From positions 124,001-188,000 of the forward strand of contig NZ_JYFE01000041.1 of NCBI RefSeq assembly GCF_000877395.1: a stretch of 64,000 bases of DNA. Direction: 5' to 3'. Below the pieces are notes generated by a model. It searched no databases. It was not told the DNA's origin and worked only from the letters and a program-made list of their open reading frames with translations. The DNA comes from Jannaschia aquimarina (GTDB lineage: Bacteria; Pseudomonadota; Alphaproteobacteria; Rhodobacterales; Rhodobacteraceae). Every line of letters begins with the position of its first letter. Position 1 is the stretch's first letter. The position numbers and the translations under genes were made by a program. Shown piece after piece: positions 38,928 to 51,345 of the stretch.

Positions 38928-38974
38928 TCTGCACAACGTGCACCACTCTGCGGACCGGGACCCCCCGATATCTG

Positions 38975-39029
38975 TCTTCTCTGCTTCAAAAATATCCCGG
39001 GGAGCGCGAGGGGCTGGCCCCTCGCTCCC
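38975..39029. repeat. GC-rich palindromic intergenic element, copy B
   Basis: Read on the minus strand it matches copy A at 1042-1097: a hairpin around GGGGCCAGCCCC, then CCCCGGGATATTTTT and an AAGCAGAGAAGA tail. The stem here is GCGAGGGG / CCCCTCGC. It lies between soeA and soeB within the operon, so it may process the message or reduce transcription of soeBC relative to soeA. Confidence 0.65.
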
Positions 39030-39124
39030 ACCCCTGCAACCGGTGCTCGCCCGCCGGATCCGGAAGCGCGTGGCCGCGCGGATCGGCCCGCGGGCGCCAA
39101 ATGCCGGGGTGGCGATGCAAGACG

Positions 39125-41950
39125 TCATTTCACCACCCATTCCAGTTGACCCGGACCTTTTCCGACAGGACTTTCCAGCCGGTCGAATTGCGGCTTGCTC
39201 ACCCCGTCCGCAGGGGCTGCAATCTTCTTCACCTCGACCTTGAGGTCGAACCAGGCCGCCTGGCCGGTGATGGGGTCCGAATTGGACCAGCGCATACCGT
39301 CCTCTCGGGGGGGCAGAAGCTCGTGGATCAGATGGTTCAGGAGGAAGCCCTTCCTCGCCTCGGGTGCGGTGTCGTGGAGGGCCCAGGCCCCCTTGCGCTT
39401 GCCGATGGCGTTCCATGTCCAGACCGTGTTCGCGTTGAGCGCGGGCATGTGGGCGACGGGGACGGTGATCTCCCCATGGGGCGATGTCACCCGCGCCCAA
39501 TCGCCGTCGGCGAAGCCTTCGCGGCGCCAGATGTCGGTGGGCACATAGAGCGGGTTGCGGCCGTGGATCTGACGCAGCCAGGCGTTCTGGGTGCCCCAGC
39601 TATGGTACATCGCCATGGGCCGCTGGGTCAGTGCCGTGGTGGTGAAGCGGGCCTCCGTCTCGTGGTCCTGCATGGGATTCCACCAGATCGGCAGGGGGTC
39701 GAAGGTCGCCAGGATGCGCGGCCGCAAATGATCGGGGGGCTGGCGATTGCCATGCCCTTCCGCGGCGAGCTGGAAGCGGCGCAGCGGCTCGCACCACAGC
39801 GTGAAGAGGTAGGGCGCGGGCTTGTCGTAGAGGCCCAGAGAGACGGCCCAATCCTGATACGCCTTGTTCCATGGCTTCATGAATTGCGCGTCTTCGGGAA
39901 TGTGGGCCAGCGCGAAGCCGCCGTTTTCAATGTAGCGGTCCAACTGATTGGGGTTCGCATCGCCACGCCCGGTCTGTTCGCCGTTGCCGCGCCAGCCCAT
40001 CAGAGGGCCGATGCCGGGGCGGCGTTCGTGGTTGACCATGTAGTCGGCGTAGTCGCGGTATTTCGGGCTGCCGTCATCGGTGACGAAACCCGGCAGGCCA
40101 AGCCTGGCGCCCAGTTCGATCAGTGCCGTCTGGAAGCCTTTCACGTCGCGGTCGGGCTCGACCACGGGCCAGCGGATGGCGTCGGCGGCGGCCTCTGCCT
40201 CGCAGATGGGACGGTCCAGCAGCGAGATGCAGTCGTGGCGCTCCAGATACGTCGTGTCCGGCAGGATCAGGTCGGCATAGGCCACCATCTCGGAGGAATA
40301 GGCGTCGGAATAGATGATCCGGGGGATCCGGTATTCGCCGTCGGGCCGCGTGTCGGTCAGCATCTTCATCGTGCCGGCCGTGTTCATGGACGAGTTCCAC
40401 GCCATGTTCGCCATGTAGAGAAACAGGGTGTCGATCTCGTAGGGGTCGCCCGCATGGGCGTTCGAGATGACCATGTGCATCAGCCCATGCGCCGACATCG
40501 GGTTTTCCCAGGTGAAGGCCTTGTCGATGCGCGCGGGCGTGCCGTCTTCGCGCAGGGCCAGATCGTCGGGGCCGTGCACGAAGCCCAGATGCGGCCCGTC
40601 AAGCGGCGCGCCGGGCGTGACCTTGCAATGGGGCTTGGGATGGATCGTCGCGGGCTTGGGGTAGGGCGGCTTGAAGCGGAAGCCGCCGGGCGCCTCGACG
40701 CTGCCGATCAGGATCTGGAGCATGTGCAGCGCGCGGCAGGTCTGGAAGCCGTTGGCATGGGCCGAGATGCCGCGCATGGCATGAAAACTGACGGGGCGGC
40801 CCTGCATCGTCGCGTGGGTGCGGCCGCGGAAATCGGTCCATTCGATGGGCAGCTCGAACGCCTCCTCGAAGGCGACGCGCGCGATTTCGGCGGCCAGGGC
40901 GCGGATGCGGGAGGCGGGGATGCCGGTGCGGTCGGCCACCGCCTCGGGCGCGTATTGCGCATCGAGATACTTGTGGGCGAGCGCGTGGAAGACGGTGCGG
41001 TGGATCACCCCGTCCTCCTCCCAGGCGCCGTTCAGGTCGGGTTCGACGTCTTCGGCGTCGAAGCAGCGCGGGCGCTGTTCGCGCCGGCACCAGACGAGCG
41101 CGTGGCCGTCGTCGTCGCGCAGCGGCAGGCCCTTGGTCGGCCCCTCGCGCGCATCGATCAGGACGGGAGCGTCCGTGAAGTCGCGAAGGTATCTGAGGTC
41201 GATGCGCCCGGCCTTGAGCAGGCAATGGACGAGCGAGAGGATCAGGAGGCCGTCGGTGCCGGGCGTGACGCCGAACCAGTCGTCGGCGACGGCGTTGTAG
41301 CCGGACCGGATCGGGTTCACGCCGACGACGCGCGCGCCGTTCGCCTTGATCTTGCCGATCCCCATCTTGATCGGGTTGCTGTCGTGATCTTCCGCCACCC
41401 CGAAGAGGATGAAAAGTTTGGTGCGGTCCCAGTCGGGCTGGCCGAATTCCCAGAACGCGCCGCCCATCGTGTAGATGCCCGCCGCCGCCATGTTGACCGA
41501 GCAGAAGCCGCCATGGGCCGCGTAGTTGGGGGTGCCGAAGGCCTGGGCCCAGTAGCTGGTGAAGCTTTGCGACTGGTCGCGGCCGGTGAAGAAGGCGAGC
41601 TTTTCGGGCGCCGTCTCCCGGATCGGCCCGAGCCAGGAGGCGGCGATCTCGTAGGCCTCGTCCCACGAGATCTCCTCGAACTGGCCGGAGCCGCGGGGGC
41701 CCGTGCGCTTCATCGGGGCGCGCAGGCGGGACGGGGCATTGTGCTGCATGATCCCCGCGCTACCCTTGGCGCAGAGGACGCCGCGATTGACGGGATGGTC
41801 GCGATTGCCCTCGATGTAGGAGATGCGGTCGCCCTGGTCGGTGTGCTTGACGTGGACGTCGATGCCGCAGCGGCAGGCGCACATGTAGCAGGTCGTCTTG
41901 CGGATCTCGTCGCCGGGTTTGGGATGCAGGTTCGGAATCAGCTTGGTCAT
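39125..41950 (-). CDS. soeA: Sulfite dehydrogenase molybdopterin subunit SoeA
   Basis: A 941-residue molybdopterin-guanine-dinucleotide oxidoreductase that should oxidise sulfite from taurine breakdown to sulfate on the cytoplasmic side. The N-terminal [4Fe-4S] motif TTCYMCACRCGIDV (about residues 19-32) pairs with RGVLCAKGSAG near residue 57. WDEAYEIAASWL and FTGRDQSQSFTSYWAQAFG mark the cofactor domain, and NANTVWTWNAIGKRKGAW lies in the C-terminal domain. No twin-arginine signal is present, unlike exported DmsA. The start ATG at 41950 overlaps the stop of the exporter gene. The assignment rests on architecture plus the xsc neighbourhood. Confidence 0.88.
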   Translation of the reverse strand: MTKLIPNLHPKPGDEIRKTTCYMCACRCGIDVHVKHTDQGDRISYIEGNRDHPVNRGVLCAKGSAGIMQHNAPSRLRAPMKRTGPRGSGQFEEISWDEAYEIAASWLGPIRETAPEKLAFFTGRDQSQSFTSYWAQAFGTPNYAAHGGFCSVNMAAAGIYTMGGAFWEFGQPDWDRTKLFILFGVAEDHDSNPIKMGIGKIKANGARVVGVNPIRSGYNAVADDWFGVTPGTDGLLILSLVHCLLKAGRIDLRYLRDFTDAPVLIDAREGPTKGLPLRDDDGHALVWCRREQRPRCFDAEDVEPDLNGAWEEDGVIHRTVFHALAHKYLDAQYAPEAVADRTGIPASRIRALAAEIARVAFEEAFELPIEWTDFRGRTHATMQGRPVSFHAMRGISAHANGFQTCRALHMLQILIGSVEAPGGFRFKPPYPKPATIHPKPHCKVTPGAPLDGPHLGFVHGPDDLALREDGTPARIDKAFTWENPMSAHGLMHMVISNAHAGDPYEIDTLFLYMANMAWNSSMNTAGTMKMLTDTRPDGEYRIPRIIYSDAYSSEMVAYADLILPDTTYLERHDCISLLDRPICEAEAAADAIRWPVVEPDRDVKGFQTALIELGARLGLPGFVTDDGSPKYRDYADYMVNHERRPGIGPLMGWRGNGEQTGRGDANPNQLDRYIENGGFALAHIPEDAQFMKPWNKAYQDWAVSLGLYDKPAPYLFTLWCEPLRRFQLAAEGHGNRQPPDHLRPRILATFDPLPIWWNPMQDHETEARFTTTALTQRPMAMYHSWGTQNAWLRQIHGRNPLYVPTDIWRREGFADGDWARVTSPHGEITVPVAHMPALNANTVWTWNAIGKRKGAWALHDTAPEARKGFLLNHLIHELLPPREDGMRWSNSDPITGQAAWFDLKVEVKKIAAPADGVSKPQFDRLESPVGKGPGQLEWVVK

Positions 41951-42714
41951 GATCGCTCCCATGCGAGCCGGATCAGGCCAGACCCGGCAAGCCCCAGCAG
42001 AAGGACGAGGCAGGCGGGGCGGTAGTACCGCTCCCACCGGGGGGTGAAGGCGGCCTGTCCGAGAAAGACGCCCAAAAGGGTCACCGGCACGAGGATCGCC
42101 GCGCGCGCCGCGGTCTGCCCGTCCATCGTGCGCAGGGCCAGATGCGTCACGAGGCCCACCGCGCCGGAGCCCAGCATGTAGATGTTGAGCGTGCCGCGCA
42201 TGGTGCGCGCGGGCAGGTCGCGCACCAGCGCGTAGAGCGCGATGAACATGCCGCCCGCGCCCGCCAGCCCCGTGATCAGCCCTGCGCCCAGCCCGGTGGC
42301 CAGCGTGCCGGGGCGGCTGGCCAGTGCCGGGATCCGCAGACGCGCGAGTTGGGTCAGCGCCAGCCCGATCAGGAGCGTCAGCGCGACCGCCTTCGAGAGC
42401 GTGGCCGGGATGGCCATCGTGGCCAGCAGGCCAAGCGGCAGGCCGACCCCCGCCGTGGCGACCAGCGTGACCGCGGCGGTCCGGTCCGCATCGGCCCAGC
42501 CGCCCTTCATCAGGACGAGGCTGGCCGACATCTCGAGGAACCAGAAGAGCGGGATGAGCTCGATTGGGGCGATGAAGGCGGCGAGGATCGCCATGGCGAG
42601 CGCGGAGAGGCCGAACCCGGCGAAGCCCCGGATCGCGCCCGCCAGAAGGCAGGCAAGGATGGCGAGTACCGCGATGCCGGGTGCGAGGCCCATCCAGTTG
42701 CCGAGCGTGGTCAT
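41947..42714 (-). CDS. TauE/SafE (TSUP) family sulfite exporter
   Basis: A 255-residue inner-membrane protein with about eight helices. It has the family's repeated motif: GAIRGFAGFGLSALAM near residue 28 and the second half around GLITGLAGAGGMFIALYAL near residue 145. In sulfonate degraders such proteins (TauZ/TauE) are thought to export sulfite, or sulfoacetate in some cases. Located between ackA and soeA, with four-base overlaps on both sides, so the cell would have both export and oxidation of sulfite in one operon. Confidence 0.87.
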   Translation of the reverse strand: MTTLGNWMGLAPGIAVLAILACLLAGAIRGFAGFGLSALAMAILAAFIAPIELIPLFWFLEMSASLVLMKGGWADADRTAAVTLVATAGVGLPLGLLATMAIPATLSKAVALTLLIGLALTQLARLRIPALASRPGTLATGLGAGLITGLAGAGGMFIALYALVRDLPARTMRGTLNIYMLGSGAVGLVTHLALRTMDGQTAARAAILVPVTLLGVFLGQAAFTPRWERYYRPACLVLLLGLAGSGLIRLAWERS

Positions 42715-43778
42715 GCGGCCTCCAGCAGGGCGGCGGCGTCACGGGCGAGGGTGCGCTCTTCCTCGGCGGGGATGACGTGGACGGGGATGTCGCCCGCCCA
42801 GGAGAGGCCATCGGCGATGCGGTCGCGAATCTCGGCGTCGTTCTCGCCGATGCCGCCGGTGAAGGCGAGCGCATCCAGCCCGCCCATCGCGGCGATGGCG
42901 CTGCCCGCATGGCGGATGGCCCAATAGGCGAAGTGGTCGCGGGCGAAGCGGGCATCGGCCGTCCCCGCCTGCGCCAGCATCCGCATGTCGGAAGCGCCCC
43001 CCAGCGCGCGCAGGCCCGAGGCGCGGTTCAGGCGTTCTGCGGCGCCGTCGATGCCATGGCGGCGCGCCATGTCGAGGACGGCCATCGGATCGATATCCCC
43101 CGACCGGGTGCCCATGGTCAGGCCCGCCACCGGGGAATAGCCCATGGAGGTCGCCACAGAGCGTCCATCGCGGATCGCGCAGAGCGAGGCGCCATTGCCC
43201 AGATGCAGCGCCAGAAGGCGGGCGGGCAGCGCGCCACGCGCGCGCAGGGTTTCCGTGAGGCCGGCATAGGAGAGGCCGTGAAAGCCGTAGCGGCGCAGGC
43301 CCGCTTCGCGATCCTCGGCGGGGATGGCATAGGTCTGCGCCACTTCGGGGATCGTCGTGTGGAAGGCGGTATCGAACCCCGCGACCTGCGCCAGATCGGG
43401 AGCGCGGGCGGCCAGCGCGCGGATCGGGGCGAGGTTGTGGGGATTGTGGAGGGGGGCGAGGGGGACATGCGCCTCGATCGCGTCGATGACGTCGGACGTC
43501 ACTCGGACGGTCCCGGTGAAGGCGGTGCCGCCATGGACGACCCGGTGGGCCGCCGCCGTGAGCGTGGCGGCGGGATGGCCGCGGTCGCGCAGCGCCTCCA
43601 GTACGAGGGCGGTGGCGGCATCGTGGTCGGGCGCGTCGGCCGATGTCTCGGTGTCGTCCAGTTCGAAGCGGGCCGCGCCGCCGATTTCGGACACGGCGCC
43701 GGCCAGCGCCTCATTCAGGTCCGCGTCGAACAGCGCGAACTTGAGGCTGCTGGAGCCGGCATTGAGGACCAGCATCAT
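42711..43778 (-). CDS. ackA: Acetate kinase
   Basis: Converts acetyl phosphate and ADP to acetate and ATP, a plausible outlet for acetyl phosphate made by Xsc. It has 355 residues from ATG at 43778; a second ATG follows directly. Motifs are VLNAGSSSLKFALFD at the start, AAHRVVHGG near residue 80, YGFHGLSYAGL near residue 160, LHLGNGASLCAI near residue 185 and FTGGIGENDAEIR near residue 300. It is shorter than the roughly 400 residues of E. coli AckA, but all core motifs are there. The start overlaps the pta stop. Confidence 0.92.
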   Translation of the reverse strand: MMLVLNAGSSSLKFALFDADLNEALAGAVSEIGGAARFELDDTETSADAPDHDAATALVLEALRDRGHPAATLTAAAHRVVHGGTAFTGTVRVTSDVIDAIEAHVPLAPLHNPHNLAPIRALAARAPDLAQVAGFDTAFHTTIPEVAQTYAIPAEDREAGLRRYGFHGLSYAGLTETLRARGALPARLLALHLGNGASLCAIRDGRSVATSMGYSPVAGLTMGTRSGDIDPMAVLDMARRHGIDGAAERLNRASGLRALGGASDMRMLAQAGTADARFARDHFAYWAIRHAGSAIAAMGGLDALAFTGGIGENDAEIRDRIADGLSWAGDIPVHVIPAEEERTLARDAAALLEAA

Positions 43779-44816: not shown

Positions 44817-46595
44817 TCATTCGGCGGCGACGTTCATGTCGTCTTTCGAGATCCCCGCGACCTGGACCGGCTTCTTCATCGCGTCGCGGCGGAAGGGTTC
44901 GCCCAGTTCCTGGTTCAGCATCACCTCGATGAGCGTGGTGCGGTTGTCCTTCATCTGTGCGCGGATCGCCTCGGCCAGCGCCTCGGTCAGCTCGTCCATG
45001 GTGCGGACCTGCACGCCGATCAGGCCACAGGCCTGCGCGATGCCCGCATAGGAGACCTTGGTGTCGAGTTCGGTACCCACGAAATTGTCGTCGAACCAGA
45101 GGGTCGAGTTCCGCTTTTCTGCGCCCCACTGGTAGTTGCGGAACACGATCTGCGTGATGGCCGGCCATTCCTCGCGCCCGATGGCGGTCAGCTCGTTCAC
45201 CGCGATGCCGAAAGCGCCGTCCCCAGCGAACCCCACGACGGGGACGTCCGGCTGGCCGATCTTGGCGCCAACGATGGAGGGCAGGCCGTAGCCGCAAGGG
45301 CCGAAGAGGCCGGGGGCTAGGTATTTCCGGCCGGCGTCGAAATCGGGATAGGCGTTGCCGATGGCGCAGTTGTTGCCGATGTCGCTGGAGATGATGGCGT
45401 CGCGGGGCAGGGCCGCCTGGATCGCGCGCCAGGCCATGCGGGGGCTCATCCAGTCGGGCTTGGCGTCGCGGGCGCGCTGGTTCCAGGTGGTGCCGGGATC
45501 GTCTTCTTCGTGGTCGAGGGACGACAGCTCCTGCTTCCAGCGCGATTTCGTGTCGGCGATGACGGCCTTGCGGTCGGCGCGGCCCGCATCGCCCGCGTCG
45601 TCGGCGAGGTTTTCCAGGATGCCGGACGCCACCTTGGCGGCATCGCCGACGATGCCGACGCTGACCTTCTTGGTGAGGCCGATGCGGTCGGGATTGATGT
45701 CGACCTGAATGACCTTGGCGTCCTTGGGCCAGTAGTCGATGCCGTATCCGGGCAGGGTCGAGAACGGGTTGAGACGGGTGCCGAGCGCCAGCACGACGTC
45801 GGCCTTGGAGATCAGCTCCATCCCCGCCTTGGAGCCGTTATAGCCCAGCGGCCCGGCAAAGAGCGGGTGCGCGCCCGGGAAGGCGTCGTTGTGCTGGTAG
45901 CCCACGCAGACCGGTGCATCGAGACGTTCGGCCAAGGCCTTCGACGCCTTGATCCCGCCGTCGGAAAGGACCGTGCCGACCCCGTTGAGGATGACCGGGA
46001 ACTTCGCCGACGACAGCAGGTCGGCGGCCGCCTTGACGCTGTTCTCGCCGCCCGGCGAATGCTCGAACTCGATGGGGTCGGGGATGTCGATATCGACGAC
46101 CTGGGTCCAGAAGTCGCGGGGCACGTTGATCTGCGCGGGCGCGCTGGCGCGGTGGGCCTTGGCGATGACGCGGGTGAGGACCTCGGCGATGCGGGAGGGG
46201 TCGCGGACCTCTTCCTGATAGGCGACCATGTCCTCGAAAAGCTTCATCTGCTCGACTTCTTGGAAGCCGCCCTGACCGATGGTCTTGTTGGCCGCCTGGG
46301 GCGTCACCAGCAGCAGCGGCGTGTGGTTCCAGTAGGCCGTCTTCACGGCGGTGACGAAGTTGGTGATGCCGGGGCCGTTCTGGGCGATCATCATGCACAT
46401 CTCGCCCGTGGCGCGGGTATAGCCGTCGGCCATGAAGCCCGCGCTGCCCTCGTGCGCGCAATCCCAGAAGGTGATGCCGGCGGTCGGGAACAGGTCCGAG
46501 ATCGGCATCATGGCGGAGCCGATGATCCCGAAGGCATGACGGATGCCATGGCGCTGGAGGACTTTGACGAAGGCTTCCTCGGTGGTCATCTTCAT
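44817..46595 (-). CDS. xsc: Sulfoacetaldehyde acetyltransferase
   Basis: Thiamine-diphosphate enzyme that splits sulfoacetaldehyde with phosphate to acetyl phosphate and sulfite, the C-S bond cleavage step of taurine breakdown. It has 592 residues from ATG at 46595 (MKMTTEEAFVKVLQRHGI), with AGGAG eight bases upstream. Family sequence is very clear: IAQNGPGITNFVTAVKTAYW near residue 75, ANKTIGQGGFQEVEQM, and the cofactor-binding GDGAFG near residue 450 with NYQWGAEKRN following. It is the first gene of the operon xsc-pta-ackA-exporter-soeABC, with a candidate TauR site 116 bp upstream. Confidence 0.97.
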   Translation of the reverse strand: MKMTTEEAFVKVLQRHGIRHAFGIIGSAMMPISDLFPTAGITFWDCAHEGSAGFMADGYTRATGEMCMMIAQNGPGITNFVTAVKTAYWNHTPLLLVTPQAANKTIGQGGFQEVEQMKLFEDMVAYQEEVRDPSRIAEVLTRVIAKAHRASAPAQINVPRDFWTQVVDIDIPDPIEFEHSPGGENSVKAAADLLSSAKFPVILNGVGTVLSDGGIKASKALAERLDAPVCVGYQHNDAFPGAHPLFAGPLGYNGSKAGMELISKADVVLALGTRLNPFSTLPGYGIDYWPKDAKVIQVDINPDRIGLTKKVSVGIVGDAAKVASGILENLADDAGDAGRADRKAVIADTKSRWKQELSSLDHEEDDPGTTWNQRARDAKPDWMSPRMAWRAIQAALPRDAIISSDIGNNCAIGNAYPDFDAGRKYLAPGLFGPCGYGLPSIVGAKIGQPDVPVVGFAGDGAFGIAVNELTAIGREEWPAITQIVFRNYQWGAEKRNSTLWFDDNFVGTELDTKVSYAGIAQACGLIGVQVRTMDELTEALAEAIRAQMKDNRTTLIEVMLNQELGEPFRRDAMKKPVQVAGISKDDMNVAAE

Positions 46596-46710
46596 GGGCC
46601 GACTCCTGCTGGCAGCGGGCGCGCCTGACGCGCGGGAATTACGGGTGGCGGCGCCCTCCCCGGCGCCTGAGCCGTTGTGTTCAGAATCTACGGTCCGGAT
46701 CAAGGGGTCG

Positions 46711-46743
46711 ATAGGGCCAGACGACCGGTGGGCCTAAGGCCAG
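46711..46743 (-). promoter_or_regulatory. Candidate TauR operator upstream of xsc (direct repeats, 23-bp period)
   Basis: On the minus strand CTGGCCTTAG (46743-46734) is followed at a 23-bp period by CTGGCCCTAT (46720-46711). Both resemble the CTGGACYTAA direct repeats that I recall for Rhodobacter capsulatus TauR. It overlaps the tauR stop codon and lies 116 bp before the xsc ATG. The same CTGGCCCTAT half-site recurs at 51346-51355. Confidence 0.65.
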
Positions 46744-48224
46744 ACGGCCTGGGCCGATCCGGCCAACCGGGCGGTTTCCCGCGCGATGCGGGCGATGCCC
46801 TCCGGGATGTCCTCGGAGGCGATGGACGAATAGGCGAGGCGGTAGAACGGCCCCGGGCGCGGGTCGGAGAAGAAGGCATCCGCGGGTTCGATCAGGACGC
46901 CGCGGGCGCGCAGGCGGTCCGCAAGGTCGATGGCCCGGACGCCCTCGGGCGCGCGCATCCAGAAGGATGAGCCACCGAAGGCATTCGCGCGCGCCGGAGC
47001 CAGGCCATGTGTGTCCATGGCGGCCTGCGCGGCGGCGCGGCGGTCGCGGAAGGCCCGGGTCATGCGCGCCACCTGCGCGTCCCAGTGGCCCTGGGCGAGG
47101 AAGTAGGCCGCGGTGCGCTGGACGTGGCCGGGAACGTGGCGCAGGACGAGGCCGCGCAGGGCACGCAATTCGCGGATCACGGGCTCGGCGGCGACGAGGT
47201 ATCCCAGGCGCAGGCCCGGAAAGAGCGACTTGGCGAACGAGCCGATATAAATAACCCGGCCCGTGCGATCGAGCGATTTGAGCGCGGGCAGGGGCGGTGT
47301 GACGAAGCCCAGTTCGAACTCGTAATCGTCCTCGACGATCAGCATCTCGCGCCGCTCGGCCAATGCGAGCAGGGCGCGGCGGCGGGCGAGCGGCATCGTC
47401 ACGCCGGTGGGGCAATGGTGGCTGGGCGTCACGAACAGGACGTCCGCCCCCTCGGGCACCTGACCGGGAGGCAGCCCGCCGCCATCGACCGCAACTTCCT
47501 GCGCGATGCAGCGGCCGAGTTGCAGGATCTCGCGCAGGGCGGGGTAGCAGGGGCGCTCCATCACCGCGGTGCGCCGCTGCGTGAGCAGGACCTGCGCCGC
47601 CATCCAGAGCGCGTTCTGCGCGCCCATCGTCACCAGCACCTCTTCGGGGCGGGCGTCGATACCGCGGCGGGGCAGGATGCGGGTGGTGATCTGCTCGACC
47701 AGATAGGGGTCGTCGCGGGCATAAGCGTCTTCGGAGAGGGGGCCGAAATCGCGCGAGCCAAGCGCCTGGAGCGCGCAGCGCCGCCAATTGCCGTGATCGA
47801 AGAGCCGCTGGTCGGTCTGGCCGTAGATGAAGGGATACGGATAGCGCCGCCAATCCGCCGGGCGGGCCAGTGGCGCCGGGTCGGGAAAGCGCTGGCCCAG
47901 GGCGCGCGACCAGTCCACACCGCCGCGCGCCGGCCGGGCCGCGCGCGGGACGGGCGCGGGCGTCGGCGCATTGGGCGACACGAACGTGCCGGACCGGCCG
48001 CGGGAGACGAGGTAGTCGTTGGCAACGAGATCGGCATAGGCCAGCGTCACGGTGATGCGGCTGAGGCCCAGATGGCGGGCCAGCGCGCGGCTGGACGGCA
48101 TCCGGTCGCCCGGCCGCATCCGGCCCGCGAGAACGCCGCGCGTCACCGCGTCCTGCACCTGCCGTTGCAGCGTCGCCCCCTGAGCGGGGCCGAGCACGAA
48201 CGATTCGACGGGGATCCGGGCCAT
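46734..48224 (-). CDS. tauR: MocR-family taurine-responsive regulator TauR
   Basis: A 496-residue transcription factor with two parts. The N-terminal GntR winged helix (about residues 15-80) has MPSSRALARHLGLSRITV and ends YLVSRGRSGTFV. The aminotransferase-fold domain (about residues 115-490) has the PLP-Lys motif GSFAKSLFPGLRLGY near residue 310, plus SHHCPTGVTMP and EDDYEFELGF. In relatives it activates taurine genes when taurine is present. It is placed between tpa (with four small genes intervening) and xsc, all on the minus strand. A candidate operator sits directly before its start codon. Confidence 0.92.
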   Translation of the reverse strand: MARIPVESFVLGPAQGATLQRQVQDAVTRGVLAGRMRPGDRMPSSRALARHLGLSRITVTLAYADLVANDYLVSRGRSGTFVSPNAPTPAPVPRAARPARGGVDWSRALGQRFPDPAPLARPADWRRYPYPFIYGQTDQRLFDHGNWRRCALQALGSRDFGPLSEDAYARDDPYLVEQITTRILPRRGIDARPEEVLVTMGAQNALWMAAQVLLTQRRTAVMERPCYPALREILQLGRCIAQEVAVDGGGLPPGQVPEGADVLFVTPSHHCPTGVTMPLARRRALLALAERREMLIVEDDYEFELGFVTPPLPALKSLDRTGRVIYIGSFAKSLFPGLRLGYLVAAEPVIRELRALRGLVLRHVPGHVQRTAAYFLAQGHWDAQVARMTRAFRDRRAAAQAAMDTHGLAPARANAFGGSSFWMRAPEGVRAIDLADRLRARGVLIEPADAFFSDPRPGPFYRLAYSSIASEDIPEGIARIARETARLAGSAQAVWP

Positions 48225-48226
48225 GT

Positions 48227-48258
48227 CTGGACCGATAGCGCGGCCGGGTTGGCCTTAT
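48227..48258. promoter_or_regulatory. Candidate TauR operator at the tauR start (direct repeats, 22-bp period)
   Basis: On the plus strand CTGGACCGAT (48227-48236) and TTGGCCTTAT (48249-48258) begin 22 bp apart, three bases before the tauR ATG. The first half-site differs by one base from GTGGACCGAT at 51369-51378. The orientation is opposite to transcription of tauR, so autoregulation by blocking is plausible. By-eye match only. Confidence 0.45.
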
Positions 48259-48286: not shown

Positions 48287-48520
48287 TCAGCGGCGGCGGC
48301 GGAACCAGCGGTCGGTGGCGCCGGTCATGGGGGCGAGGATGATCGCCATCAGCAGCCAGAACGTGATCCGCACCGCAGAGCCGCCGTCATTCGCCGTGGT
48401 CGTCGCAAAGCGCGAGACATCGTTGATCAGAAGGAAGCAGGTGAAGGCCGTCGACAGGATCACGCCCATGGCGAGGCAATCGAGCCATTCGTTCAGGACC
48501 TGACGAACGTGCCGGTTCAT
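48287..48520 (-). CDS. Small membrane protein A', 77 residues, function unknown
   Basis: Two hydrophobic segments (about residues 14-34 and 52-70) and a basic C-terminal tail (DRWFRRRR). Near residue 12 it has LDCLAMGVILSTAF ... LLIND, which mirrors LDSLAIGVVVSTLL ... LLD in the protein encoded at 49588-49806, so the two appear homologous. The start is ATG at 48520; the ribosome site is weak. It lies 62 bp upstream of tauR on the same strand. No known family or function. Confidence 0.7.
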   Translation of the reverse strand: MNRHVRQVLNEWLDCLAMGVILSTAFTCFLLINDVSRFATTTANDGGSAVRITFWLLMAIILAPMTGATDRWFRRRR

Positions 48521-48595
48521 GAGGGCTCATCTAGGCCGGAGCTTCCTAACATCCAGTAAAGAAGCCGAAATCCGGCTTTCCACGCGGCTGTCATG

Positions 48596-48961
48596 TCAGA
48601 AGCCGAGATCAATGGAGCGGATCGTCGCTTCGTCGAAAAGGGCGGACAGAGGTGCGGCCACATCGGTGATCGCGACGTAGAGAATGACCCCTCCGATCGC
48701 CAGAACGACCAGCGGGGCAGGCGCCTTCGATTGCTTCCGCGCCGGAGCGGCGGCGCCCCAGGCGGGCGCGGGACGAGGAGCCGCCTTGGCGGATGCAGGG
48801 GCGGTGGCGGCCCGGACCTTGGACGGTCTTTCGGAGCGGACGACCGGCGCGCTGCCGGATCTTGCCTGCGCGGTCCCGCGCATATTCGTGATCGGCCCCT
48901 CGTCGCGCGGAACCGCGTTGCGGGGGTGCCTGGTGTCGAGCGGGTGGAACGACTTCGCCAT
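48596..48961 (-). CDS. HPLD-motif single-pass membrane protein B', 121 residues, function unknown
   Basis: The start is ATG at 48961 (MAKSFHPLDTRHP); upstream codons of the longer frame look non-coding. The N terminus has FHPLDTRHPRN ... GPITNMRG, shared with the neighbour at 49110-49538. A basic, Ala/Pro-rich linker (about residues 30-88) leads to one hydrophobic segment (about residues 88-112, LVVLAIGGVILYVAI). A short acidic end follows. I know no named family. Probably a membrane-tethered protein with a cytoplasmic motif; topology is inferred. Confidence 0.65.
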   Translation of the reverse strand: MAKSFHPLDTRHPRNAVPRDEGPITNMRGTAQARSGSAPVVRSERPSKVRAATAPASAKAAPRPAPAWGAAAPARKQSKAPAPLVVLAIGGVILYVAITDVAAPLSALFDEATIRSIDLGF

Positions 48962-49109
48962 GCCGATCCCATGGCGGGCGAATGCGGCAGGGATTTGGCC
49001 GCCCGGCGCCGCGCCGCCGCTTGGCGAGGAGGGGTGTGGCCCCACGGGGCGTTGCCCGGCGATCCGGGTCCGGGGGCCTGGGGTGCGGCGAGCAGTATGC
49101 CGCCCGCTC

Positions 49110-49538
49110 TCAGGGTGTCTCGCCGTCCCGTGTCAGGACGTCCCAAACGGCCTGGAGATATGTCTTCGGCTCGTAGACCGTGAGCCCGAGAACGGTCACG
49201 CCCGTATCGGGATCGCCGACTTGGCCGACGGTCGGATTGGAGAGGGTGAAGAGCAGCAGATACAGCGCGACGGCGGCCAGCACGCTGAGGATCATCGCGG
49301 GCGCGCTCCTGCCTTCGGCGCGCTGGCGGGCGCTTTCCCCGCGGAACAGGGCCAGAACGGCGGCGCCGGGCAGGAACAGCCTTGCCCAGAGCGGGACGCT
49401 GCGCCGTGCCTCGCGCTCGGCCGACCGGACGCGCGCCTTGCGTGCCTTCGCCTCGGCGCGCATGTCGACGATGGGACCGTCCGCAGGTGGAGGGGGCGCG
49501 GAGCGATTGCGTTCGTCGAGAGGGTGCAGCTTTCGCAT
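49110..49538 (-). CDS. HPLD-motif membrane protein B, 142 residues, function unknown
   Basis: The start is ATG at 49538 (MRKLHPLDERNRS). The N-terminal HPLDER ... DGPIVDMR matches the sister protein B'. A strongly basic stretch (about residues 50-70, KARKARVRSAEREARR) precedes two hydrophobic segments (about residues 72-92 and 105-125). The C terminus (residues 126-142) is soluble. Adjacent genes on the same strand are a two-helix membrane protein (49588-49806) and B'. I do not recognise the family. Confidence 0.65.
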   Translation of the reverse strand: MRKLHPLDERNRSAPPPPADGPIVDMRAEAKARKARVRSAEREARRSVPLWARLFLPGAAVLALFRGESARQRAEGRSAPAMILSVLAAVALYLLLFTLSNPTVGQVGDPDTGVTVLGLTVYEPKTYLQAVWDVLTRDGETP

Positions 49539-49587
49539 GCCGGACCTGATCGCCTCGAAATCGAGCCGGATTGGGTCGGTGCGCGGG

Positions 49588-49806
49588 CTATTCCTCGTCC
49601 CGGCCAAGCAGGACGAGCGTGCCGATCGGCGCCGCCAGCATGGCGAGATGGGCCCAGACGACGGTCAGCATCAATGGCCCCATGGCCCGCAGCCCCTCGC
49701 GTGCCCCGAAGATGTCGAGCAGCATCATGGCTTCGAGCAGAAGGGTCGACACCACGACGCCGATGGCGAGGCTGTCGAGCAGGATCCTGGTCGGTCCGTC
49801 CTTCAT
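49588..49806 (-). CDS. Small membrane protein A, 72 residues, function unknown
   Basis: Two hydrophobic segments (about residues 10-32 and 42-66) and an acidic end (GRDEE). LLDSLAIGVVVSTLLLEAM near residue 9 matches the start of the protein encoded at 48287-48520. ATG at 49806 lies 39 bp after the tpa stop on the same strand, so it can be read from the tpa promoter. It opens an A-B-B'-A' set of four small genes between tpa and tauR. Confidence 0.68.
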   Translation of the reverse strand: MKDGPTRILLDSLAIGVVVSTLLLEAMMLLDIFGAREGLRAMGPLMLTVVWAHLAMLAAPIGTLVLLGRDEE

Positions 49807-49845
49807 CTCTAAGGACTTAGCCGGCCCCGGAGGGCCGGCAAGGCA

Positions 49846-51240
49846 TCAGGAGAGGACGCGGCCCATCGCCTCGTCAACCGAGGCGGTGATGGCGTCGATG
49901 TCGTCGGCCGTCGCGATCAGCGCCGGGCTGAAGAGCAGGCAGTTGTTGCGCTTGGGGACCGAGCGGTTCGACGCCCCGATCACGTAGCCCTGCTGCATGC
50001 AGTCGGCGGCAATGGCCTTGACCTGCGCCTCCGGCAGAGGCTCTCGCGTGTCGCGGTCGGCGACGAGTTCGATGCCGCAGAAGAGGCCCTTGCCGCGCAC
50101 GTCCCCGATGGCTGCGTGGCGTTCGGCCAGCGCGTGAAGGTTGTCCAGCAGGCGTTCGCCCATGGCCTGCGTGTTCCGGAGCAGGTCCTCGGTCTCGATG
50201 ATCTCCATGTTCTTGAGGGCTGCGACGGGCCCGGCGGCGCACCCCCCGAAGGTGGAGACGGCGCGGAAGAAGTTCATCGGATCGTCGGGGGCGGATTTGA
50301 AGGTGTCGAACACCTCTTCGGTCGTCGCGACGCAGGAGATGGCGGCATAGCCCGAGGCGACACCCTTCGCCATTGTCACGATATCGGGGCGCACGCCGTA
50401 ATGCTGGTAGCCGAACCAGGTGCCCGTCCGGCCGATGCCGCAGACGACCTCGTCGATGTGGAGGATCAGGTCGTATTTGTCGACGATCTCCTGCACGCGC
50501 TCCCAGTAGCCGGGGGGCGGGACGATGACGCCGCCGCCTGCCGTGATCGGCTCGAGACAGATGGCACCGACGGTATCGGGGCCTTCGGCGAGGATGACCT
50601 CTTCGATGGCGTCGGCGGCGCGGCGGCCGTAATCCTCTCCGGACAGGTCGCCCCAGCCCTGGTCGTGCTTGCGGTATTCGAGGCAGTGAGGGACGCGCAC
50701 GAAGCCGGGGGCGAAGGGGCCGTATTGCTCGTTGCGTTCGTCCTGACCCCCGGCGGACATGCAGCCGATGGTGGTGCCGTGATAGTCGCGGTCACGGTAG
50801 AGGATCTTCCACTTCTTGCCACCGTGGCGCGTCTGGGCGATCTGGCGGATCATCTTGAACGCCTGCTCGTTCGCCTCGGATCCGGAATTGGTGTAGAAGA
50901 CGCGGCTGAGCCCCGGCATCTTGTCGAGAAGCCGTTCCGCGAACAGCGATCCCGGAATGCTGCCAAGGGTTTGCGCGAAGTAGTTCATCTTGACGAGCTG
51001 GTCGCGGACGGCATCCGCGATCTCTGTCCGGCCGTAGCCGACATTGACCGTCCAGACGCCGCCGGACACGGCGTCGAGATGTTCCTTGCCGTGCTGGTCC
51101 CAGACGCGCATCCCCTTGCCCTCGACGATGATCCGGGGATCCGTCGTCTCGAGCGATTTGTGGGGCATGAGGTGGTGCCAGATATGGGCACGGTCCGCCT
51201 CGACCACATGGCTCAGGTCGTTCGCGTTGAAATCCTTCAT
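49846..51240 (-). CDS. tpa: Taurine--pyruvate aminotransferase
   Basis: PLP enzyme that moves the amino group of taurine to pyruvate, giving sulfoacetaldehyde and alanine. It has 464 residues from ATG at 51240 (MKDFNANDLSHVVEADRAHIWHH), preceded by GGAGGT. Class III aminotransferase motifs are present: YTNSGSEANEQAFKM near residue 110, YHGTTIG, the cofactor Asp in HIDEVVCGIGRTG near residue 245, and the PLP Lys in TMAKGVASGY near residue 280. It is divergent from tauABC, and a candidate TauR site lies 106 bp upstream of its start. No alanine dehydrogenase gene accompanies it. Confidence 0.94.
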   Translation of the reverse strand: MKDFNANDLSHVVEADRAHIWHHLMPHKSLETTDPRIIVEGKGMRVWDQHGKEHLDAVSGGVWTVNVGYGRTEIADAVRDQLVKMNYFAQTLGSIPGSLFAERLLDKMPGLSRVFYTNSGSEANEQAFKMIRQIAQTRHGGKKWKILYRDRDYHGTTIGCMSAGGQDERNEQYGPFAPGFVRVPHCLEYRKHDQGWGDLSGEDYGRRAADAIEEVILAEGPDTVGAICLEPITAGGGVIVPPPGYWERVQEIVDKYDLILHIDEVVCGIGRTGTWFGYQHYGVRPDIVTMAKGVASGYAAISCVATTEEVFDTFKSAPDDPMNFFRAVSTFGGCAAGPVAALKNMEIIETEDLLRNTQAMGERLLDNLHALAERHAAIGDVRGKGLFCGIELVADRDTREPLPEAQVKAIAADCMQQGYVIGASNRSVPKRNNCLLFSPALIATADDIDAITASVDEAMGRVLS

Positions 51241-51345
51241 CACTGACCTCCGGGACTGATCTGGCGAGGGGCGTGGCCCGCCCGTCTTCGCACAGCGCAC
51301 GAATATCATGCCGCCCGCAAGTAGGGCAGCGAAATCGTGAGCGGG

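Follow-up and report, generated by a model that had tools for sequence, protein, structure and literature searches.

In R. capsulatus the taurine genes reportedly lie in the order tpa, tauR, xsc with a divergent tauABC (Wiethaus 2008). The 64,000-nucleotide stretch of the Jannaschia aquimarina genome analysed here, which we call the window, has the same gene order and divergent tauABC as this arrangement, with four extra genes between tpa and tauR. For the Rhodobacterales more widely, the TauR regulon has been described as tauABC, tpa, xsc, pta, sulfite exporters and bisC/dmsC/hybA, and the four genes, here termed A, B, B' and A', sit inside a cluster of this kind, although the available portion of that description mentions no small membrane protein of the A or B sort (PMC5320631). 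The original prediction knew of no described family for these proteins. This agrees with the absence of any description in the accessible portions of the literature retrieved, including PMC5320631 and PMC12632250, and with scans of Pfam and NCBIfam, in which neither the four proteins nor the scanned relatives of A and B gave a match near a curated cut-off.

Layout, coding signal and predicted proteins

Table 1. Features at the tpa-tauR junction (window coordinates).
Feature	Position	Strand	Description
A	49588..49806	-	72 aa, two-helix membrane protein, taurine-locus clade
B	49110..49538	-	HPLD protein of 142 aa with a basic N-terminal half, a single strong membrane segment and a tail at the C terminus
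B'	48596..48961	-	121-aa HPLD protein; B homologue without the PLWARLF stretch
A'	48287..48520	-	77-aa two-helix membrane protein; separate old branch, orthologue in G160
tpa	49846..51309	-	class III aminotransferase
tauR	46734..48224	-	MocR/GntR-type regulator
xsc	44817..46703	-	sulfoacetaldehyde acetyltransferase
tpa-A spacer	49807..49845	-	39 bp between tpa and the start of A; 8-bp G+C stem-loop, without U run
TauR-like half site	48227..48235	-	TCGGTCCAG; lies after the four genes, just upstream of the tauR start codon

The four ORFs follow one another on a single strand in the order A, B, B', A' (Table 1), and the soe and tauABC genes belong to the same cluster. Their coordinates were confirmed, and we accept them as genuine small membrane-protein genes at the junction between tpa and the regulator gene, which we take to be tauR on the basis of the original prediction and of context. 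B' and A' are separated by 75 bp, and A' and tauR by 62 bp. Two starts are available for B, and the ATG at 49538 (142 aa) appears likelier than the alternative TTG at 49607, because in B', in the B of genome G166 and in the B of genome G303 the protein starts only a few residues ahead of the HPLD/RPLD motif; with the TTG start, B would overlap A by 20 bp. Elsewhere in the window, ORF calls over the soeA region (38947-43774) gave no single clean reading frame, and the SoeB and SoeC ORFs are open.

Codon-position G+C is consistent with minus-strand coding in A, B and A' (GC3 0.82-0.89) and fits it less sharply in B' (GC2 0.61, GC3 0.80). A plus-strand ORF of 378 aa (window 48684-49820) opposes A, B and most of B', and its composition is not coding-like (GC2 0.68, GC3 0.69). 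Values of dN/dS in eight between-species pairs ranged from 0.30 to 0.72 by the Nei-Gojobori method, a rough measure here given the large divergence.

Two hydrophobic segments are present in A and two in A', as had been described, and AlphaFold2 confidently predicts A to be a helical hairpin (pLDDT 92). B and B' each have a basic N-terminal half followed by one strong hydrophobic segment; the AlphaFold2 prediction for B is without confidence (pLDDT 57). The basic HPLD N terminus of B and B' is probably cytosolic and followed by one membrane helix and a short tail. Both proposed pairs proved homologous in alignments judged against composition shuffles, none of 2000 of which scored as well in any of the comparisons: z was 6.8 for A/A', 9.0 for B/B' and 9.6 for the N termini of B and B' alone. 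A search with B also recovers B' in its own genome (E 2.8e-4). The B of G166 is close to B (z 18) and scores only z 2.4 against B' in the shuffle test. As to a phage holin-like origin, none of the four proteins gave a PHROGs match near cut-off (best E 0.076, for B), and the G157 relative reached only E 0.69 against Pfam GTA_holin_3TM.

With respect to regulation, the portion of PMC5320631 available quotes the TauR consensus CTGGACYTAA, the reverse complement of which corresponds to the TAAGTCCAG-like sites at these loci. With a simple pattern, two such sites 22 bp apart were found before tauR in four of 16 stretches downstream of tpa (G156, G162, G151 and G152), and variants were recognized by eye in others. 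The window retains one, the half site of Table 1, which lies after the four genes and not before them, in contrast to the regulon as presented in that portion of the paper (PMC5320631). The simple pattern gave no site between tpa and A in the window, a result of little weight since it gave none in the tauA-tpa intergenic region either. The tpa-A junction folds strongly (66 bases, -36.3 kcal/mol versus -23.2 for shuffles, z -4.4), and similar G+C stems between tpa and A can be seen by eye in G158 and G155 and are not evident in G159, G157 and G150. No promoter-like or terminator-like site was called between 48000 and 51600. The hairpin after tpa may limit read-through; co-transcription of A with tpa is possible, and expression of A from tpa is uncertain because this strong hairpin separates the two genes.

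Occurrence of A-type and B-type genes

We sampled 20 Jannaschia genomes, all of which contain tpa. Strong matches to an A-type profile (E <= 1.5e-9) were obtained in ten of them, amounting to 11 A/A' genes, all of them placed within the taurine locus and oriented like its tpa, tauR or xsc. The site is between tpa and tauR in six genomes and between tpa and xsc in two (G159 and G160); in G154 the A-type gene sits between tauR and xsc, and G166 has the order tpa-B-A followed by pta, with neither tauR nor xsc in its 12-kb stretch. Two of the 11 genes are of the A' type, those of the window and of G160. The latter genome has its A' orthologue without A, and eight other species have an A-type gene without A'. 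In six other genomes the protein retains 38-54% identity to the window's A.

The remaining ten Jannaschia genomes have tpa and no A. Since tpa and tauR are only about 80-95 bp apart (by alignment ends) in three of these, G167, G163 and G164, the four genes of the window are extra relative to that state, in keeping with the earlier impression that the set had been inserted. In the 17 genomes where tpa is followed by tauR or xsc, the gap after tpa measures between 74 bp and about 2.2 kb; in G153, G151, G152 and G156 it contains long ORFs unlike A or B.

The link with taurine genes was then considered outside the genus. Sixty stretches that follow tpa in other genera, 31 of them with tauR at 53-64% identity, contained no A-like ORF (best E 0.41) and no B-like ORF (best E 0.32). 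These stretches are not a random sample: they were taken from the top 64 entries that follow the window in the tpa match list (107 other genomes match), G142, G098, G060 and G064 having been left out, they cover only the region downstream of tpa, and contig ends cut six of them to less than 4.3 kb. Plasmid records, 32 of which contain tpa, gave no match for the A of G159. Taking these counts together, linkage to tpa, tauR or xsc holds for 11 of 11 genes, with ten of 20 Jannaschia genomes lacking A and none of the 60 other-genus stretches containing it. A connection of the genes with taurine loci thus stands within Jannaschia and was not found at the 60 tpa loci of other genera; the taurine link is real and, as far as sampled, genus-specific and dispensable.

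We also searched 394 genomes of the bacterial family, a term that here denotes the search tool's own grouping (NCBI places Jannaschia in the Roseobacteraceae). With the A profile at E <= 0.01, 12 of the 394 genomes were matched, the window's included, in searches that scored only 11-15 first-look candidates per genome, so that absences may hide misses. The 11 matches other than the window's comprise seven members of a wide two-helix family, considered below, and four that are chance-like.

B is rarer than A. Among the 20 Jannaschia genomes, B-type genes were found only in the window (two) and in G166 (one), and four weak Jannaschia matches of the B profile were rejected as relatives. Across the same 394 genomes the B profile (E <= 1e-3) gave five matches outside the window, of which only that in G303, a genome of another genus, is a true B and the only one detected outside Jannaschia; of the others, three are parts of larger proteins resembling sensor kinases, and the fourth is part of a larger membrane protein. 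A single-protein search with B of 149 genomes returned 18 weak matches beyond its own genome, none of the eight inspected being B-like, and a genome-collection scan with B found nothing. The locus in the other genus (L174, 7649-8053) encodes a B-type HPLD protein of 134 aa preceded by a 66-aa ORF, and the genes upstream of this pair are presumably glnB and glnA.

Relation of A and A' to a wide two-helix family

The profile of the wide two-helix family matched 271 of the 394 genomes (E <= 1e-5), subject to the same caution about absences. Its members are proteins of 73-111 aa (rows of alignment A6), and a standard copy occurs elsewhere in four of the 20 Jannaschia genomes, including on contig C68 of the window's own genome (E <= 4.1e-27). 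A and A' share with this family their length, two helices, conserved glycines (G16 and G43 of A in alignment A6) and similarity over the full length of the profiles: comparison by hhalign of nine A-type rows (alignment A2) with seven wide-family rows (alignment A3) gave a probability of 97.9% and E 4.6e-13 over 76 columns. The genes of G154 and G157 are intermediate. They show the D-x-x-x-L-G turn of the wide family, and its profile matches them at 1.5e-10 and 9.2e-10, respectively. In the shuffle test the pair A157/W167 reached z 16.2, while the window's A and A' gave only z 3.8 and z 3.4 against W302.

A model built without taurine-locus rows was run against 6042 ORFs and gave 13 hits, nothing beyond the wide family and A/A'. 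The top four were wide-family genes from its training set, and the other nine were all A/A' genes at E 1.5e-12 to 0.34, several of them not significant on their own. The model failed to recover two of the 11 taurine-locus genes, those of G155 and G158, and it found the window's own A only at E 0.34.

Despite these similarities A is not a standard member. The N-G-I-V-F-x-G-V-Q stretch in helix 2 of the seven rows of alignment A3 is absent from all A/A' rows of alignment A6, the core A sequences having LDSLAIG and APFGTL in its place; several further rows of the wide family have it missing or changed as well, so that it marks the main branch only. A and A' also differ from wide-family members in being located in the taurine locus. 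Because the stretch is missing in all A/A' rows, we classify A, on sequence grounds, as a divergent paralogue of the wide family. The notion of A as an orphan was rejected, since the intermediates in G154 and G157 tie it to the family, and its earlier treatment as a family of its own has to be replaced by that of a divergent paralogue of a widespread family absent from Pfam and NCBIfam. In this way what had been an orphan gene set is now tied to a large protein family.

In a tree, A and A' form a single clade (support 100/97) whose nearest row is the C68 copy of the window's genome (91/84). Within the clade A' forms one branch (100/98), the seven core A rows a second (100/98) and G154/G157 a third (92/80). 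The tree was built from short sequences, and only six of its 30 inner branches are well supported, with 15 open. Since A and A' each fall in a well-supported group with members in other species, the pair is old. A recent mirror duplication is ruled out by the tree and by the presence of A' without A in G160; the proposal that a two-gene unit was duplicated in this lineage was accordingly given up, and nothing shows that B moved or was duplicated jointly with A. The simplest history, considering that the taurine-locus genes form one clade, would be that a copy of the two-helix family entered the taurine locus once, early in Jannaschia, and split into A and A' types before the present species separated, and that after later losses about half of the species retained a copy, which always has the orientation of the taurine genes.

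The neighbourhoods of the wide family are of other kinds. A gene that we take to be nusB or mmcB, from recognition of the sequences, lies within about 1.5 kb at 27 of the 30 best-scoring wide-family loci. Neither is present in the A/A' loci (L062-L071 and L074, of about 3.2 kb), where tpa, tauR or xsc is found instead, and the four Jannaschia wide-family loci (L100-L103) likewise lack both. One of these, L101 (genome G000, contig C68, 63379-63663), is the copy of the window's genome, with neighbours that are presumably bolA, a monothiol glutaredoxin gene and ispG. Among 17 inspected loci of mostly weaker members (L157-L173), 12 stand beside a gene presumed, again by recognition, to be of the propionyl-CoA carboxylase type, and eight are flanked on both sides; a wide-family branch adjoining such subunit genes extends over 12 genera (L159 and L162-L172). 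At L173 a weak member lies near genes resembling phnM and phnN.

Possible functions

Our best reading, to which we assign an even chance, is that A and A' are taurine-locus paralogues of a two-helix inner-membrane family outside Pfam and NCBIfam and act as optional accessories of taurine-related membrane machinery, B and B' representing a second, rarer family. Its parts differ in standing: descent and linkage are well supported by the sequence comparisons, and the choice of partner membrane protein is a guess. The four proteins would be made during taurine use, the HPLD end of B would face the cytosol, and as small inner-membrane accessories they would most likely stabilise or tune a membrane protein of the same cluster, such as TauC, the SoeC anchor or a sulfite exporter. 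A is dispensable for the taurine pathway, since half of the Jannaschia genomes do without it. This provides a natural experiment: the sister Jannaschia species share one and the same taurine cluster, yet A is present in only half of them, so that a part played by the gene in taurine uptake or in sulfite handling can be tested directly.

Somewhat less probable, though a serious contender, is that the genes are passengers: the tpa-tauR junction would be permissive, and a membrane-protein gene that landed there early would have been lost at random without having any taurine role. The variable size of the gap, the unlike ORFs that it holds in G153, G151, G152 and G156, the many unrelated genes that the wide family adjoins, the lack of A in half of the genus and the only moderately low dN/dS all speak for this. 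However, the same type of gene keeps recurring at the site (10 of 20 genomes), all 11 genes agree in strand, A has remained in the locus despite changes of gene order (G154, G159, G160 and G166), and sequence identity to the window's A has been kept across six further genomes. The recurrent location and strand favour, not strongly, an optional accessory over a pure passenger.

We consider it quite improbable that the proteins are dedicated, required subunits of SoeABC or TauABC, as their membrane character and the soe and tauABC genes in the same cluster might suggest. SoeB and SoeC were found in the stretches covered in all ten A-positive genomes, yet SoeB, SoeC and xsc are also present in all eight A-negative genomes that were followed downstream of xsc; in the other two A-negative genomes (G149 and G161) the 12-kb stretch contains no xsc, and these two fall outside this count. 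None of the 60 other-genus stretches contains A or B. Since SoeBC occurs with or without A, a required Soe role is not supported, and the suggestion of a partner of the Soe complex is weakened. Within these stretches pta was present in three of ten A-positive versus one of eight A-negative genomes.

Next to no credence attaches to the idea that the four ORFs arose by chance in DNA of high G+C content and that the real gene is the 378-aa ORF of the plus strand: the ORFs are short and the opposite strand holds long ones, but homologues occur at the same place in other species, and codon-position composition and protein-level conservation also speak against it.

Beyond the optional-accessory reading of A and A', a broader and unlikely conjecture would have the wide family consist of undescribed small inner-membrane helpers that were repeatedly recruited to catabolic operons, among them those for taurine and propionyl-CoA carboxylase, where each would tether or tune the membrane side of its pathway, with A, A' and B as the taurine-specialised branch and B as a cytosol-facing adaptor. 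About two thirds of the genera sampled from the bacterial family have a member of the wide family.
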